A program made the position numbers and the translations under genes. This document shows, piece after piece, positions 23,518 through 35,652 of a DNA stretch of 37,526 bases. This stretch comes from a virus: positions 1 through 37,526 of IMG/VR virus record IMGVR_UViG_3300036978_000071; one strand, written 5' to 3'. Each line of letters opens with the position of its first letter. Within the stretch, counting starts at the first letter, position 1. Below the pieces are notes generated by a model that was given only the letters and a program-made list of their open reading frames with translations, was not told the origin of the DNA and made no database searches.

Positions 23518-24263
23518 AGCTTGACTTCCTTTGTGTCAAAATTGTATTCGCCATCATGCAGAATACGAGCCATCTGTGCTTGAATGAGAGCAAACTCTGC
23601 TGTGTATCCGGCTGTGGTGTAAGCGTCCTCTACGGTCTTCCAGCTGACTCCGTGCTTAGTCAGAAGCTTCTCAGCAGTAACAGGACCAACACCCTCTAGT
23701 CCGGGGTAGCCATCGGTCTTGTCCCCGATAAGAGTCTGCATGAGCCAGTACTTTGTAGCCTCAGTCTCAGTAATGAGACTAAAGGCTTCAGTGTCTGGGT
23801 TGAACAACCATCCCGGAATGGTCTTGAAGTCCTTGTCGATGGAGATGCTGAGGGATGAGTGTCCCTTCTTCTGCGCCCGTGTATGCATGATCCCAATGAG
23901 ATCATCAGCTTCGAGGCGTTCCTCGATCACACAGGCGTAGGTTCCATACAGAAGATCCCTGAGAGCCTTGTAACCCGCTGGCTTACGGACCTTCTTCCGA
24001 TGAGCTTTGTACTGGGGGTAAATCTCCTTACGGTAGTTACCTGATCCCGTGAAGTACAAAGTAAGACTGCCTTTGGTCATAGCCTTGTACTTATCCATGG
24101 TGTTCTTAGCCATGCTCAAAGCCTCGTTGATGTTGCAGAACACAATGTCTAGATCATCATCAAATCGAGCACAGTACTCACACGACGAGCAGATGCCGTA
24201 AATCAGGATATCGCCATCGATATGAACCTCATCAAAGGATTGAGGAAGTAAGTCAATCTTCAA
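23493..24263 (-). CDS. 5'-3' exonuclease (gp6-like, FEN family)
   Basis: A 256-residue flap-endonuclease-type nuclease that in T7 degrades RNA primers and host DNA. Visible metal-site acidic residues are in VHIDGDILIY (about 13-22), EERLEADDLIG (about 113-123) and SISIDKDFKT, followed by the helix-hairpin-helix DGYPGLEGVGPVTAEKLL. Lengths match the family. The start is TTG at 24263 with GGAGG six bases upstream, overlapping the previous gene by 11 nt. A phage-type palindrome is embedded at 23763-23780, where it encodes SLITET. Confidence 0.9.
   Translation of the reverse strand: MKIDLLPQSFDEVHIDGDILIYGICSSCEYCARFDDDLDIVFCNINEALSMAKNTMDKYKAMTKGSLTLYFTGSGNYRKEIYPQYKAHRKKVRKPAGYKALRDLLYGTYACVIEERLEADDLIGIMHTRAQKKGHSSLSISIDKDFKTIPGWLFNPDTEAFSLITETEATKYWLMQTLIGDKTDGYPGLEGVGPVTAEKLLTKHGVSWKTVEDAYTTAGYTAEFALIQAQMARILHDGEYNFDTKEVKLWQPPANN
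23763..23780 (-). promoter_or_regulatory. Phage RNAP promoter candidate inside exonuclease
   Basis: Minus-strand AGTCTCATTACTGAGACT, one base off the consensus palindrome. It is the only copy upstream of the head and tail genes, so transcription from it would read the DUF1599-like gene, the portal and onward. The predicted start would be the G of GAGACT, by alignment to T7. This equals a class III promoter position. Confidence 0.6.
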
Positions 24264-24471
24264 AGTTTGCCTCCGCTAGTTTCTTAGCCATTTCGAGTAG
24301 CCCGTAGATCTCATGGATGGGAGCGTTAGTTGCACATCGATAATCATCTCGAACAGTGGTTGTACTTTGGTAGCCAATAAAGAACATGGCATCGAATCGC
24401 TTCTGCAATTCGCTCAGTAGATCTTCGGTGGACACCAGTTCAAGATGTGCGGCGTTGTCAGGTTCATTCAT
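24253..24471 (-). CDS. Small hypothetical protein in replication block
   Basis: A 72-residue protein starting MNEPDNAAHLELVSTEDLL. The helix LLSELQKRFDAMFFIGYQST followed by a C-terminal helix GLLEMAKKLAEANF resembles small phage proteins of the 'ELxxRFDxxxFxG' type, of unknown function. I chose ATG 24471, which overlaps the polymerase stop by one base (TAATG), over the longer frame to 24525 that overlaps the polymerase. Confidence 0.6.
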   Translation of the reverse strand: MNEPDNAAHLELVSTEDLLSELQKRFDAMFFIGYQSTTTVRDDYRCATNAPIHEIYGLLEMAKKLAEANFED

Positions 24472-26216
24472 TAGTGAGTTTCCGCCCAGTTCTTCCCAAC
24501 GCGATATTCGCCATCGAGGGGACATCGGAATCCGTACTCAGCTCCTGCCTTCTGGATTGCCTTCACCATGATCCTACCAGCCTCATCAGCATTGGAAGAA
24601 GAACACATCAGTTGATACTCATCGTGGACTGATGCCACCTGCTGCACCAAGATGTTGCGTTCGGCATACTCCTTGTGGGCAATGATGCAAGCCTTCTTCA
24701 TCACCACAGCACCAGCACTCTGAAGAAGCGTGTTCAACGCTGCATGAGCACTACGAATGATGAGAGGCCGTCCATCGATGCCCTTGAGCTTCCCCTTCGT
24801 AGCAACAACACGCTCAACATCATCCTTGAGCTTCTGGAATGCAGGGACAGCCGCATAGAAGTTAGCCCTGCTCTTCTTACCCTTCTTTGGATCGCCACCA
24901 AGAACGATGCCTAGCTTGGGATCTCCAGCGCCGTAGATAAGGGCGTAGATGCCTCCCTTAGCCTGATTGCGGGCTGTCTTGTGCGTTGGGTTGGCTTTGT
25001 CCTGTGTCTGCTGTGGGGCCAAGCCGAACGCCTTAGCGTTCTCCCAGTGAATGTCACAAGACAGGATCTTCTTGGCGTAGGCAGCACCGTCATACTTACC
25101 TAGGAAATGGGCAAGGCAACGGAGCTCAAGACCCGAAGCATCCACACCCACGAGAACCATGCCCTTAGCCGCAATGAATAGAGAGCGGTACGCAGGGTCA
25201 GTTGGAACCTGAGCCATGTTGGGGAAGCTGTGGGTGCAGCGCCCTGTGACTGCTCCGTTGGTATTAACCCGTCCATGCAGTCTTCCGTTCTTCTGTAGCT
25301 TGAGCCAAGCGTTGTCCCCATCAGCCAGCTGACCAAGTCTCTTAATACAAGTCAGGTAGTTGACGAGGAACTTTGCTTCTGGGTAGTCGAGGGATGCCAG
25401 TACGGCTTCATCCACACGAGCACGACCATCTGGTGTCATCTCCTCTGGAACCCATCCATACTTCTCAATCAATCGATCAGCAATCTGCATCCTACTGCCG
25501 GGATTGAACTGCTCAATCTTGTCCTTCATGTCCTTACCGGTCTTCTCACTAACACGCTTGATGACCTTGTCTGGGAAGATCTCATGCATCTGTGCTTCAA
25601 TTGCCAGCTTCTCCTTGAGCAGCGATGCATGAAGAACCTCAGCAGCAGCAACATCAAAGGGGAAGCCAATGCGCTCCTGTACTCTGATGATCTGGGCAAA
25701 GCCATGCTCAACTTCTACTGCCTCTTCAGCAATGCTGTCGAGATCGAGATCGTGAAACAGACACGCAGTGACTTCCACATCCCTCTTGCAGTACTCCAAC
25801 ATCTCCGCAGAGAACTCAGTAAAGCTTGGAGTCTCGCCCTTATGCATCCGCAAGCGGTGACCCCAAGCCTTGAGGCTGTGTGAGCCCACCATCTCCTTTG
25901 GAAAGCCAGCATTCAAGGAACCGAAGTCATCGTTGCGTAGGTCTGGATACTTGAGTCTGGAAAGAATCAAAGTATCAATGACCCTGCACTTCGGTGTGAA
26001 GCCGATCAACTTGGTGAGGGCTGGCAGATCGAAAGCCATGATGTTGTGGCCGATCAACTCAGTTGCCTTACCCGCTAGTTCTTTGAACTCCGTTGGAGAA
26101 ACCATTACTGGCTCTGCTCCATCGATGCTCACAACAATGCAGTGAAGCGTTTGGAGATCAGTCAGGTTGAGCCAATCTTCAAGTGGGTTGGTTTCTATGT
26201 CTAGGAATAATCTCAT
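24471..26216 (-). CDS. DNA polymerase, family A (gp5-like)
   Basis: A 581-residue replicative polymerase, shorter than T7 gp5 (704). The 3'-5' exonuclease has LFLDIETN (D6, E8), HNIMAFDL (D63) and YCKRDVEVT (Y142, D146). The polymerase has motif A VGVDASGLELR (D359), O-helix RNQAKGGIYALIYG (R416, K420, Y424, Y428) and motif C VHDE (D532). Y424 aligns with E. coli Pol I F762 and T7 Y526; Tyr here is the T7-like state linked with virulent phages. The thioredoxin-binding loop of T7 seems absent. ATG overlaps the preceding stop. Confidence 0.95.
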   Translation of the reverse strand: MRLFLDIETNPLEDWLNLTDLQTLHCIVVSIDGAEPVMVSPTEFKELAGKATELIGHNIMAFDLPALTKLIGFTPKCRVIDTLILSRLKYPDLRNDDFGSLNAGFPKEMVGSHSLKAWGHRLRMHKGETPSFTEFSAEMLEYCKRDVEVTACLFHDLDLDSIAEEAVEVEHGFAQIIRVQERIGFPFDVAAAEVLHASLLKEKLAIEAQMHEIFPDKVIKRVSEKTGKDMKDKIEQFNPGSRMQIADRLIEKYGWVPEEMTPDGRARVDEAVLASLDYPEAKFLVNYLTCIKRLGQLADGDNAWLKLQKNGRLHGRVNTNGAVTGRCTHSFPNMAQVPTDPAYRSLFIAAKGMVLVGVDASGLELRCLAHFLGKYDGAAYAKKILSCDIHWENAKAFGLAPQQTQDKANPTHKTARNQAKGGIYALIYGAGDPKLGIVLGGDPKKGKKSRANFYAAVPAFQKLKDDVERVVATKGKLKGIDGRPLIIRSAHAALNTLLQSAGAVVMKKACIIAHKEYAERNILVQQVASVHDEYQLMCSSSNADEAGRIMVKAIQKAGAEYGFRCPLDGEYRVGKNWAETH

Positions 26217-26395
26217 ATGTCCACCATGTCCTCTAGGGTTCTACCCTGATCCTCAAGCAGCGTTCTTAGCTTGAGTAAAGCCTGTCTGCCTATTTCCTTG
26301 GCATGATCAGGCTTGATGTTCTCTTTCTCTCGTTCATTCCACAGCTGGGCAACCTCTGCCCATGTGTTCAAGTACTTGTCTTGTTCAGTGCTCAC
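26213..26395 (-). CDS. Small hypothetical helical protein
   Basis: About 60 residues: STEQDKYLNTWAEVAQLWNE and then KPDHAKEIGRQALLKLRTLL. No family recognised; charged and helical. I place the start at the GTG at 26395, which overlaps the previous stop, rather than the ATG at 26434, because the latter overlaps 50 bases of the upstream gene. The Shine-Dalgarno is weak in either case. It is coupled to the polymerase by ATGA. Confidence 0.5.
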   Translation of the reverse strand: MSTEQDKYLNTWAEVAQLWNEREKENIKPDHAKEIGRQALLKLRTLLEDQGRTLEDMVDI

Positions 26396-26735
26396 GGTTC
26401 TCGTATTCAGCAAGTTTGTACTTGAGCCTTGCATTCTCCATACGGAGTCGAAGGATCAGTTGTTTCTCGTCCACCAATGTCAATGGCTCCATGAAGATCG
26501 GAGTGTGCTCACCCAACCATCCTCCAAGGATATTGAATTCGAAGTACTCAATGGCATCGGTTTCGTCCATACCCATGCTCATCAGATTCGCACGGATTAG
26601 GGCGTTGTCATAGACCGCTAGTGCCAGTTGGCCACAACGCTGACCAACACCAATCAGTGCGTTGTCGTGTCCGTCCACGAACAGTGCTTCTTCATTCTGC
26701 GAAGCAACCAAATCCCTCTCTTCAATATGCTTCAT
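26385..26735 (-). CDS. Conserved phage hypothetical (FVDGHDNALIGV family)
   Basis: A 116-residue protein. The block EEALFVDGHDNALIGVGQRC, then ALAVYDNALIRANLM, then DETDAIEYFEFNILGGWLGE matches a widespread small phage protein with a .DG.D.AIIGV motif and an A.E.FEFN..G.W.GE motif. Function is unknown in the family. I take the ATG at 26735, which overlaps the dockerin-protein stop (ATGA), with GGGGG eight bases upstream; the ATG at 26741 is too close to that G-run. The C-terminal 30 residues are a charged helix. Confidence 0.75.
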   Translation of the reverse strand: MKHIEERDLVASQNEEALFVDGHDNALIGVGQRCGQLALAVYDNALIRANLMSMGMDETDAIEYFEFNILGGWLGEHTPIFMEPLTLVDEKQLILRLRMENARLKYKLAEYENREH

Positions 26736-27361
26736 CGGCATGGCCCCCAGTTTCCCAACACTCCTGCCAAGTACTGAGTGCCGAATTGATTCCAGTGTGT
26801 GAGCACCAGAGACAAATCAATTGGGCCTACAAAGAGATCACCATCGATATCGAACGCGCTGCCGGTGATCGTTGCGCTTGTGGTCAAACCTGTAACAGGC
26901 CATCCACCAACATTGCTTCCCCACACAATCGTTTCCTCTGGATACGAGGTATAGGTAAGAGCAGGGATGAACTCAACAGAGGTTGAGGCAAACGGCTGAA
27001 GCACGGTGAACTTGAACACCGTCATGGTGTCAAACCCATCGACCATGGTGGCGCAGCCGCACAGAGGTGAGAGCCAGTAGTAAAGAGCATCACCATCAGC
27101 GGGTGGAATGACCTCATTGATTCCACTGAGATCGCCATACCAGCCCTTGGGGGCAGGGAGAAACGACATCAGTGCAGGAAGAGTATTGGTTGAGTTGTCG
27201 ATGCCATCGAAGCGAAGAACAGTGTTGTCCCATTTGATGATGATGTCTGCTGCATTCATTCGAACAGCAGGGGATGCATAGGCAACAAGAGGAACGGACA
27301 CAGACTCACCAACTGAGTATGGACCACTAGAGACTAGAAGTAGGTCGATCAGTTCGAACAT
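26732..27361 (-). CDS. Cohesin-like / dockerin (F-hand) protein
   Basis: A 209-residue protein. Residues about 8-165 look like a cohesin-type beta-sandwich (SVGESVSVPLVAYASP, then IIIKWDNTVLRFDGID, then MTVFKFTV). Residues 171-182, DIDGDLFVGPID, form a perfect dockerin F-hand calcium loop, followed by LSLVLTHWNQ and a final VLGNWGPC. This calcium loop with a W-G-P-C ending is characteristic of abundant secreted proteins of planctomycetes. No signal peptide is present. The start has AAGGAG about seven bases upstream. It sits between helicase and polymerase with no link to replication, so it looks acquired from a host. Function in the phage is unknown. Confidence 0.8.
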   Translation of the reverse strand: MFELIDLLLVSSGPYSVGESVSVPLVAYASPAVRMNAADIIIKWDNTVLRFDGIDNSTNTLPALMSFLPAPKGWYGDLSGINEVIPPADGDALYYWLSPLCGCATMVDGFDTMTVFKFTVLQPFASTSVEFIPALTYTSYPEETIVWGSNVGGWPVTGLTTSATITGSAFDIDGDLFVGPIDLSLVLTHWNQFGTQYLAGVLGNWGPCR

Positions 27362-27470
27362 TCTTTGGCTCCTTCTTCAGTGCTTCTGCACGAAGCTTTG
27401 CAATTTTTTCTGCTTTTTGCTGGCTGTTCATGCGCCACGGATGGTTCTTCTTGGGGGGAATGGCGGTCAC
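27327..27470 (-). CDS. Small basic protein, 47 aa
   Basis: A 47-residue frame read from a GTG overlapping the helicase stop by four bases (GTGA), with GGAGA six bases upstream. Sequence opens with TAIPPKKNHPWRMNSQQKAE and has a helical Lys/Glu/Ala core (KIAKLRAEALKKE). It fills the otherwise empty gap between helicase and the dockerin gene and overlaps the latter's start by 35 nt. A shorter version from the ATG at 27431 is possible. No family recognised. Confidence 0.55.
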   Translation of the reverse strand: MTAIPPKKNHPWRMNSQQKAEKIAKLRAEALKKEPKNVRTDRPTSSL

Positions 27471-29062
27471 TGAATGTCTCCGTTGATTGGAAGTTCTTCG
27501 ATCTCGACAAGGCGACCTGAATCACGATACCAACGCAAGCCACCGGCCAAGCCAGTCTCGCCTGTGTATCGGTTCTTCAAAACCCTAAGCACTAATAGAT
27601 TACCGTTTTCTGCATCCTGTTGGTCACGCTCGAAGCCAATCACTGCATCAGCAAGTTGAGCGATTGAGTGTGAGCCCCGCAGTTGAGACAAGGATGTCTG
27701 TGCTCCCTGCTCATGCCCATGCTCTCCAGCAGGACGGCGAAGATGTGATACAACGAACAAGGCAATCTGTGTCTCTTCAACAAGCGAACGCAGAGCAGTC
27801 ATGGTGTTGTCGATCAATCGACGCTCGTCACCATCACCAAGACCAGACACAACAATGCTCAAGTGATCGAGGAATACATACTCGCATCCCAGAGCCTTGG
27901 TCATGTATCTGACCCGCGCCAATAGGTTCTCAGGATCGACAGAACCAAAGTGATCAAACAGAACAACTTGACCCACAGTGACATCGAAAGCTTCTCGCTT
28001 CTGCTCTTCATTGATCCCACGCTCCTTCCACCAATACGGTGGACAATTCAGATGGATGCCCATCAGGTTCTGGCTAGTCCTCTTCACCGATTCTTCGAGC
28101 ATGAGTACGCCAACCTTCTTGCCACAGCGCACAAGATGGCACACCAGTTCACGACATACGGAGGACTTACCGATGCCTGTTCCCGATGTCATGACGATCA
28201 GTTCACCCCTGCGGATGCCCATCAACTTCTCGTTGATCCGCACCCATGGGTAAGGAACACTCTCAGTGGTGTCCTCAGCGATAACTACATCCCACAGGTC
28301 TGAGCCAAGTACAACGCCATCAGGGCGGTACACCTTGGCCCCGTAGACCGCGTCTACGACCTTTGCACCCTGCCCAGCCATGTGAGCCTCGTTGGCATCC
28401 TTGAAGCCCTGTACGCGGCCAATGCGGGCCTTGCCGGGTGTGAGGAGAAGAGCACACTCCCTAGCAGCCTTGTTACCTACATCATCATCATCAAACAGGA
28501 TGTTGACGGTGTCGAATGTCTCAAGCCATTCAAGGTTCTTCTGGAATGACTTAACTGCTCCTGCTGCTCCAGTAGGGATGGAGACAACAGGCCACTTGTT
28601 TCCAAAGAGTTGAGAGACTGTGAGGGCATCGATCTCTCCCTCTGTGACCGTGACCATCTTGCCACCATCACGCCACAGATGAGATCCGTACAACGGGACT
28701 TCCTTGAAGTCTCCCAGCGTTGTGAATTCCTTTGTGGGGAAGCGAAGCTTCTGCGCGATGATTACGCCGTCCTTGTAGTACTGAGCTACATGGACATTCT
28801 GCCCAAAGAAGTCTCCTAGTCCGTATCCCCAGATACGACAGGTGTCCTCACTGATTCCGCGCTTCTTTAATGCGGAGAATGTGACATCGATCATGTTCGT
28901 CTTTCGTGCTGGCTTAGTCTCAGTAGTGAGACTCGATTCGGCTGCTTCGTGGTGATTACATCCAAAGCAAAAACCGTGTCCATCGGTGTAGCGAGCAAGA
29001 TTGTTCTTGCTGCCGCAGCTAGGACACGGTTCGTGCTTTACGAATTCTGACTGGTTCGACAT
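27467..29062 (-). CDS. Primase/helicase (gp4-like)
   Basis: A 531-residue bifunctional enzyme. Zinc finger C13, C16, C32, C35; TOPRIM primase with TEGEIDAL (E141, E143) and ILFDDDDVG (D191-D194); hexameric helicase with Walker A SGTGIGKS (293-300), Walker B YVFLDH (D399), H-motif VVSH (H440), LRGSHSIAQLAD and ERDQQ containing a likely arginine finger (R479). Size and order match T7 gp4. An internal Met57 follows a promoter-like palindrome at 28916-28933, so a zinc-finger-less short form is likely. AGGGAAC precedes the ATG. It overlaps RusA by 44 nt. Confidence 0.95.
   Translation of the reverse strand: MSNQSEFVKHEPCPSCGSKNNLARYTDGHGFCFGCNHHEAAESSLTTETKPARKTNMIDVTFSALKKRGISEDTCRIWGYGLGDFFGQNVHVAQYYKDGVIIAQKLRFPTKEFTTLGDFKEVPLYGSHLWRDGGKMVTVTEGEIDALTVSQLFGNKWPVVSIPTGAAGAVKSFQKNLEWLETFDTVNILFDDDDVGNKAARECALLLTPGKARIGRVQGFKDANEAHMAGQGAKVVDAVYGAKVYRPDGVVLGSDLWDVVIAEDTTESVPYPWVRINEKLMGIRRGELIVMTSGTGIGKSSVCRELVCHLVRCGKKVGVLMLEESVKRTSQNLMGIHLNCPPYWWKERGINEEQKREAFDVTVGQVVLFDHFGSVDPENLLARVRYMTKALGCEYVFLDHLSIVVSGLGDGDERRLIDNTMTALRSLVEETQIALFVVSHLRRPAGEHGHEQGAQTSLSQLRGSHSIAQLADAVIGFERDQQDAENGNLLVLRVLKNRYTGETGLAGGLRWYRDSGRLVEIEELPINGDIQ
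28916..28933 (-). promoter_or_regulatory. Phage RNAP promoter candidate inside primase/helicase
   Basis: An exact copy of the consensus palindrome, minus-strand AGTCTCACTACTGAGACT, lying in codons 44-49 of the helicase gene (SLTTET). The in-frame ATG for Met57 is at 28894, about 22 nt further on. Transcription from it would produce an mRNA for the short helicase and all genes downstream to the exonuclease. Confidence 0.68.
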
Positions 29063-34414: not shown

Positions 34415-34707
34415 GTAGTTCTGCTTTCAAATTGCCTGAATTGCTCAACGGCATTCCAGTAGGCACTTGCCTTCCGTGATTCGACACAGCGCGTAATCAA
34501 CGCTGATGCTTCCTTGATGATGGCATCGGCATGAATGCTGATCTCGTCGCGCTGCTTGATTGCCTCGTCGAGATCAAAGAGAATTTCCTTCACTTCACCT
34601 TGCAAACGACCAATCAAATACGCTTGGTCAGTTGCAGCCACCACTAGGTGGTTGAATGGTGCTAACGACTTAGCAAGGTTGTGGGCGAGGTCGAATGGAT
34701 CACTCAT
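34411..34707 (-). CDS. Small helical early protein
   Basis: A 98-residue protein, fully helical: SDPFDLAHNLAKSLAPF, then a long heptad-like stretch GRLQGEVKEILFDLDEAIKQ, then ADAIIKEASALITRCVESRK. A coiled-coil dimer is plausible. A strong GAGGAGG Shine-Dalgarno precedes the ATG, which overlaps the previous stop (ATGA). No family recognised. Confidence 0.65.
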   Translation of the reverse strand: MSDPFDLAHNLAKSLAPFNHLVVAATDQAYLIGRLQGEVKEILFDLDEAIKQRDEISIHADAIIKEASALITRCVESRKASAYWNAVEQFRQFESRTT

Positions 34708-34919
34708 GGTTTTGCCTCCTCGTCTGCGTTCAATTCGATTGATTCATTGCCCCACTCGATCATCTGACTCTCAAGAGAGTCTGGATCAACTCCACGCAAT
34801 TCTTTCTCCGTCCACACAACAACAGCACAACCACGATCATGAATCCAGCGCATCATCTCTGCGATGATTGCTTGCTCAGTATCCGCGCCTTTGAAGTTTG
34901 GTTTCTTGAGATCACTCAT
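34704..34919 (-). CDS. Small acidic early protein
   Basis: A 71-residue protein from MSDLKKPNFKGADTEQ, containing IIAEMMRWIHDRGCAVVVWT and an acidic tail (ELNADEEAKP). I chose ATG 34919 with GGAGAA seven bases upstream over the ATG at 34934, which overlaps more of the previous gene. No family recognised; small acidic early proteins of T7-like phages often inhibit host enzymes, but nothing here shows that. Confidence 0.6.
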   Translation of the reverse strand: MSDLKKPNFKGADTEQAIIAEMMRWIHDRGCAVVVWTEKELRGVDPDSLESQMIEWGNESIELNADEEAKP

Positions 34920-35652
34920 CGGCGTTCTCCGCATGGGAGATCATGTTCACAATCAGTTCGCAGTTCAGGTTGTGCCGATCACGGGCTCGCGCCTTATGGA
35001 ACAGCGTGACTGCTGCCTCGTCGTGTTGTGCCATGATGTAGAACCTGTCTCCCTCACGCATATCTGCGTCTACCGTGTACACGCTGAACAGGTGCAAACG
35101 ATTGCGCTCAGGGTCACGCATATGATTCTCAACCTCAACGACTGGGATTGGATCGGGGAGGTACGAAAGGGAGCACTTCCTGCACCGCGAGCGGCTCGCG
35201 CCGTTGATTGAGGGGATGAAGCCCCAACCGCACTTGAGACAATGGGCGTACTCGTTCGTAGCCTCAGGGACGATCCAAAACAGACCGTTCTTCGCCTCCT
35301 CTGAGTACATCTTTCTGATGATCTCCTCAGAGAAGTTACCTCCGTAGTAGAAGACATCGAGATCTTGAGGATGTTCTTCTCCTAGGTCTTCCGATCTTGC
35401 GATGAACACGTGGTGTTCTTGATCAGGGCTGTCGTAGAACTTGACATTGGCGTAGAAGCCTTTGATGTGCGGCACGGTGTCCACCTTTTTCATTACCAAA
35501 GAAGTAATATTAAGACCTGCGGGATGTTTGGTGACTTCATAGGATGAGATCTTGCCTCCCACCGCTTCGCCTAGAAGGGTGGCAAGGTTGTCCAAGTCTG
35601 CCTCGATCCGCACGGTGTATTCCATCGTGGGATCCATGTCGATTCTGTACAT
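34912..35652 (-). CDS. Zinc-ribbon early protein
   Basis: A 246-residue protein. The first half (1-130) has EYTVRIEADLDNLATLLGEA and several strands of no recognised fold. A zinc ribbon follows: C138-x2-C141 and C157-x2-C160 (CLKCGWGF...CRKCSLSY). The C-terminal part contains RDRHNLNCELIVNMISH. It could bind nucleic acid or a host protein. The ATG at 35652 is preceded by AAGAGAG; a longer frame to 35814 only overlaps the upstream gene. Confidence 0.7.
   Translation of the reverse strand: MYRIDMDPTMEYTVRIEADLDNLATLLGEAVGGKISSYEVTKHPAGLNITSLVMKKVDTVPHIKGFYANVKFYDSPDQEHHVFIARSEDLGEEHPQDLDVFYYGGNFSEEIIRKMYSEEAKNGLFWIVPEATNEYAHCLKCGWGFIPSINGASRSRCRKCSLSYLPDPIPVVEVENHMRDPERNRLHLFSVYTVDADMREGDRFYIMAQHDEAAVTLFHKARARDRHNLNCELIVNMISHAENADE

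Follow-up and report, generated by a model that had tools for sequence, protein, structure and literature searches.

Why would a T7-like phage carry, among its replication genes, a protein resembling the secreted cohesin-dockerin proteins of planctomycetes, and what might that protein do? Few protein contacts known are as strong as those of cohesin-dockerin pairs, which have mostly been examined in cellulosomes; what they do in planctomycetes is, to our knowledge, a matter of hypothesis only. We analyzed a T7-like phage record of 37.5 kb (the window, meaning the whole stretch of 37,526 nucleotides), whose core genes encode a T7-type RNA polymerase, a primase-helicase, a DNA polymerase, a Gp2.5-like protein, RusA and an exonuclease, and whose virion genes encode a head-tail adaptor, a major head protein and a tail protein. 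The gene in question had been placed between helicase and DNA polymerase, and this position was confirmed: the helicase is followed by the cohesin-dockerin gene, two small genes and the polymerase. The features of this region are as follows.

27467..29062, minus strand: T7-type primase-helicase (PHROG 239, E 7.6e-176), upstream border of an accessory slot
27369..27374, minus strand: ribosome-binding site AAGGAG, 8-13 nt 5' of the cohesin-dockerin start (upstream sequence)
26732..27361, minus strand: leaderless cohesin-dockerin protein, 209 aa, ATG start (open reading frame with phage and planctomycete homologues)
26385..26741, minus strand: 118-aa gene of unknown function (phrog_13182), its first 10 nt shared with the end of the cohesin-dockerin gene
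26213-26434: small gene between the cohesin-dockerin gene and the DNA polymerase
24471..26216, minus strand: family A DNA polymerase (PF00476, E 2.6e-43; PHROG 17), downstream border of the slot

The window also contains ten sites of the palindrome AGTCTCA-GTAN-TGAGACT with at most two mismatches (positions 23763, 28916, 32452, 32927, 33350, 34327, 36245, 37163, 37337 and 37387), where 0.01 would be expected by chance. Several of them lie in intergenic gaps of the early region, and the palindrome is possibly a phage operator, promoter or processing site.

The original prediction described the product as a cohesin-like beta-sandwich followed by a dockerin tail, an architecture that both fold matches and alignment with planctomycete proteins bear out. 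The first part corresponds to one feature.

26858..27352, minus strand: predicted cohesin-fold domain, residues 4-168 (AlphaFold2 model and structure searches; Pfam Cohesin E 0.018)

Since the PF00963 score of the window protein (15.6 bits) was below the Pfam cut-off of 24.1, we named the domain cohesin-like by its fold. The fold comparison used an AlphaFold2 model built from five phage homologues, with a pLDDT of 62, indicating moderate confidence; a two-sequence model gave a pLDDT of 35. Foldseek placed solved cohesins on top (E 1.8e-06), and VIA-align gave 2vo8 as the best match to the model (Z 12.9, rmsd 2.9 Å over 134 residues), a second cohesin, 1aoh, at Z 12.6 and the first unrelated row at Z 9.2. 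Of the 50 top-ranked structural rows, 47 were cohesins. When profiles were compared, the match to Pfam-positive planctomycete cohesins was weak (27% probability over 49 columns), so the cohesin assignment rests on the fold; the model predicts that the domain adopts the cohesin beta-sandwich.

The tail contains two further features.

26816..26851, minus strand: dockerin calcium loop DIDGDLFVGPID, residues 171-182, aligning with the first planctomycete dockerin repeat
26738..26782, minus strand: remnant of a second dockerin repeat GTQYLAGVLGNWGPC, residues 194-208, with its calcium loop deleted (alignment with cellular and other phage homologues)

A perfect calcium loop and a dockerin tail ending in WGPC had been claimed. 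The loop is intact, with Asp at positions 1, 3, 5 and 12, and the protein does end in WGPC (last letters WGPCR), but the dockerin is a reduced one, because the second calcium loop, which the host protein and other phage homologues have, has been deleted together with its surroundings (~14 residues in the alignment with host proteins). A single loop is present in the window protein and in its 84% identical homologue from another phage, G184 (locus L001), and two in cellular and other viral homologues. In the G184 copy the loop reads DIDGDQFVGSSD; the calcium ligands are kept while neighboring loop residues vary, which speaks for a protein that binds calcium while working outside the cytoplasm. 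The dockerin type I profile (PF00404) did not match the window protein alone, whereas 14 of the 17 members of the family alignment A3 matched Dockerin_1 (best E 1.1e-6). The sub-threshold Pfam scores would fit a generic phage beta-sandwich related to neither cohesins nor dockerins; we consider this scarcely credible, given the dominance of cohesins among the structural matches, the Dockerin_1 matches of the family and the existence of full-length planctomycete homologues.

No Sec signal peptide was found in the window protein, and no leader in its alignment with host homologues. An in-frame stop lies only five codons upstream of the start (open frame of 214 aa), in line with the predicted absence of a signal peptide. 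The protein is also, as proposed, not simply a copied secreted protein; both the signal peptide and the second loop have been lost.

Searching GTDB genomes directly with the window protein gave no match, and cellular homologues were reached through a tail DNA pattern followed by whole-genome profile searches. The pattern was scanned across 84,980 prokaryote species genomes of all phyla, which serves as a non-planctomycete control, and matched at least 119 stretches. Among the matches listed, 111 of the 113 assigned to a phylum belonged to Planctomycetota, in agreement with the predicted planctomycete style of the tail. One of the two others was labelled Limnohabitans (L073, JASGCF01) and is located in genome G090, which was reached through the family of the planctomycete MAG G012 and contains at least 95 tail matches, nearly all of them dockerin tails; the Limnohabitans label of this MAG looks wrong.

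Full-length cellular homologues aligned over residues 4-208 (E 1.7e-22 and 6.6e-20) and were 35-40% identical to the window protein. A search by the cohesin domain found homologues in 22 of 181 genomes of one planctomycete family, and the viral profile found them in 26 of the 397 genomes sampled from the class to which G004 belongs. The Lake Zurich MAG ZH-13MAY13-plancto74 (locus L123) is among the carriers. The host proteins consist of a signal peptide, a cohesin domain and two dockerin repeats, and in the alignment the phage protein starts where the mature host chain starts. Their genes abut Cohesin-HYR-Dockerin genes, whose layout matches the cohesin-HYR-dockerin "adaptor" of the hypothetical "planctosome" proposed for lake Phycisphaerae Nemodlikiaceae (PMC6461901).

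The evidence on the host phylum is divided. All cellular homologues found are planctomycete, as the original prediction would have it, but comparison of the window DNA with the 181 family genomes for spacers or prophages yielded no CRISPR spacer and only low-complexity and very short matches, and the GC content of the window is about 50% versus 58-70% around the cellular homologue genes. Judged from homology, the T7-like carrier phages probably infect Phycisphaerae-type planctomycetes. We know of almost no phages of these planctomycetes, and found no described phage of the phylum in the open-access papers searched.

Relatives of the window protein are encoded at 27 IMG/VR loci, gathered by searches with small alignments of viral copies, to which a final scan added none; the counts depend on IMG/VR contig classification, and most contigs examined carry phage hallmark genes. 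INPHARED phages, PHROGs and NCBIfam gave no match to the window protein, no model in PHROG, Pfam or NCBIfam names this family, and searches limited to open-access papers returned no report of a phage cohesin-dockerin protein. With relatives in at least six other T7-like lineages and in several larger phages, the window protein belongs to a phage protein family that had no name before and comes in two forms, with and without a signal peptide, and the picture of a one-off gene capture did not hold.

Signal-less copies occur in seven lineages (window, G184, L290, L291/L292, L294/L266, L305 and L310/L311), and every contig with such a copy carries T7-like genes. Five of the seven (window, G184, L290, L294, L305) have it in an early or replication region, and four of these (all but G184) show the order helicase, cohesin-dockerin gene, DNA polymerase. 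In L291/L292 and L310/L311 it falls within the late structural block, with the portal gene on one side and the scaffold and capsid genes on the other; tail-fibre-like genes precede it in L291. No T7-like genes accompany the signal-bearing copies (L276/L303, L269/L312, L301, L297 and L304) on their contigs, several of which are T4-like in having a baseplate wedge, DnaB, primase, ribonucleotide reductase or phrog_138 major head protein. In the tree, all viral copies fall on one side of a 100/100 branch separating them from 16 cellular homologues, a topology that does not tell one capture from several as the origin of the viral clade. Within the viral side, the signal-less copies do not form one clade, and the starred branches force two changes.

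Several other viral proteins resemble parts of this architecture. A 442-aa signal-bearing relative (L314, 7457-8785) apparently has two copies of a cohesin-like motif (PADGNALY, PKDGNAWH) and no dockerin. A 3719-aa protein on a 94 kb viral contig (L270, 1498-12657) contains two dockerin repeats ending in WGRC, along with poly-Ser linkers and recurring W-G motifs reminiscent of RCC1 repeats. A second viral family of ~170 aa (L271, 9919-10437; L273, 4584-5093) combines a dockerin-like tail with a different N-terminal domain.

Within the phage group, the interval between helicase and polymerase (window 26216-27467; loci L175-L222) is a variable accessory slot of 51-2008 nt, containing thyX, a C5-cytosine methylase (L175) or small genes. 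The cohesin-dockerin gene was present in none of the 48 closer helicase-matched relatives of the window, whose slots hold thyX, cytosine methylase and other genes. Such a distribution would suit a recently acquired host gene that has no role in the phage and is only a transient passenger. The comparison with G184, where the gene is placed before the RNA polymerase, argues otherwise. Core proteins of the two phages are only 25-44% identical, and their likeness at the DNA level is limited to the cohesin-dockerin gene (77.7%) and one other gene.

34704..34934, minus strand: 76-aa gene, 78.8% nucleotide identity to the G184 phage copy

In G184 the 76-aa gene (L001, 2781-3005) directly follows the cohesin-dockerin gene; it has no PHROG match and also occurs in L142 and L144. 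Between the window and G184 cohesin-dockerin copies, dN/dS is 0.074 with near-saturated synonymous change, and residues 31-120 show 2 non-synonymous versus 30 synonymous differences. The gene is under strong purifying selection, and with such a dN/dS the open reading frame is not a chance one. Together with the separate, fully supported viral clade, the 27 viral loci and the recurrence of the signal-less form in seven T7-like lineages, this makes the passenger explanation very improbable, and we rejected it on the dN/dS and the phylogeny.

The original prediction had suggested a virion adhesin, a decoy or a scaffold-interacting protein; three possible functions were weighed here. The protein could be built into the phage particle, where cohesin-dockerin contacts would hold the phage on its host before irreversible adsorption. 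A T7-like phage can build proteins into its particle without any signal peptide, the protein has kept its calcium loop, and this role is kept alive because two lineages (L291/L292 and L310/L311) place the gene near tail-fibre-like genes, before scaffold and capsid. We nevertheless regard it as rather unlikely: five of the seven signal-less lineages have the gene at an early or replication site, no copy fused to a structural protein turned up, and relatives with a signal peptide could not join virion assembly in the cytoplasm in this manner.

Alternatively, the protein might act inside the cell, binding freshly synthesized host cohesin or dockerin proteins before their export and thereby stopping export or freeing the secretion pathway during infection. 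The missing signal peptide would agree with this, as would the placing of the gene among early or middle genes in most T7-like carriers and the very many dockerin tails in Phycisphaerae-family genomes (at least 95 pattern matches in one). However, calcium is low in the bacterial cytoplasm and dockerins generally require it to fold, and the conserved calcium ligands and signal-bearing viral relatives point outward. Such intracellular binding therefore seems improbable to us, more so than a place in the virion.

We favour a third reading, the blocking of docking sites after export or lysis, over both virion tethering and intracellular trapping. The window protein, a phage-encoded, signal-less relative of secreted Phycisphaerae cohesin-dockerin proteins carried by T7-like phages, would act as a plug of docking sites, a role we propose tentatively, at somewhat short of even confidence. 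It may work outside the cytoplasm, where calcium is available, a site suggested by the conserved calcium ligands and the existence of signal-bearing relatives. Having cohesin and dockerin ends in one chain, the protein is suited to plugging into host cohesin-dockerin surface complexes from both ends: its cohesin face could capture host dockerins, or its dockerin end could sit in host cohesins. By export, the signal-bearing form would reach the surface of the infected cell, and the signal-less form of the window may either be released when the cell lyses or travel with the virion. Occupied docking sites could then block superinfection or keep progeny off debris, which is the least certain step.

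This proposal is supported by the secreted Phycisphaerae homologues with their two dockerin repeats and their genes abutting Cohesin-HYR-Dockerin genes, by the division of viral copies, signal-bearing in phages with T4-type genes and signal-less only in T7-like phages, where they sit in the replication slot or next to tail-fibre genes, and by the low dN/dS between the copies of two phages that otherwise differ greatly. Counting against it are the lack of a spacer match in the family genomes, the GC difference and the location of the window copy among replication genes rather than lysis or virion genes; moreover, we know of no export route for the signal-less form.

More broadly, it is possible, and we put this a little more cautiously still, that T7-like and larger tailed phages of Phycisphaerae share a dedicated protein family that subverts the extracellular cohesin-dockerin network of the host, one form being exported and the other, signal-less, released by lysis or borne on virions. 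If true, phages and hosts would here be interacting at the surface in a new way, and the family would serve as a marker gene for otherwise unknown planctomycete phages, flagging phages of a phylum with none described in the literature covered. A phage family that keeps a cohesin-dockerin protein under strong selection also offers an outside probe of the planctomycete system. That signal-less copies are confined so strictly to T7-like phages, and signal-bearing ones to other tailed phages, was unexpected and is directly testable.

Compared with known systems, the window protein has the predicted cohesin fold in common with cellulosomal type I cohesins (CipA, 1aoh) and the Clostridium perfringens cohesin 2vo8 (Z 12.6-12.9), but shares only 10-13% identity with them and stands in no cellulosome or glycosidase context. 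The secreted Phycisphaerae proteins, such as that of L123, align over their full length in the same cohesin-to-dockerin order and share the motif GINE..PPADG.ALYY and the WG.C tail; they differ in having a signal peptide and two calcium loops. Like the "planctosome" adaptor (PMC6461901), beside which the host homologues are encoded, the window protein unites cohesin and dockerin in one chain; unlike it, it has no HYR domain and no signal peptide and is phage-encoded. Its signal-bearing viral relatives, from tailed phages without T7-like genes, have the same architecture and belong to the same viral clade, but retain the signal peptide and both calcium loops.
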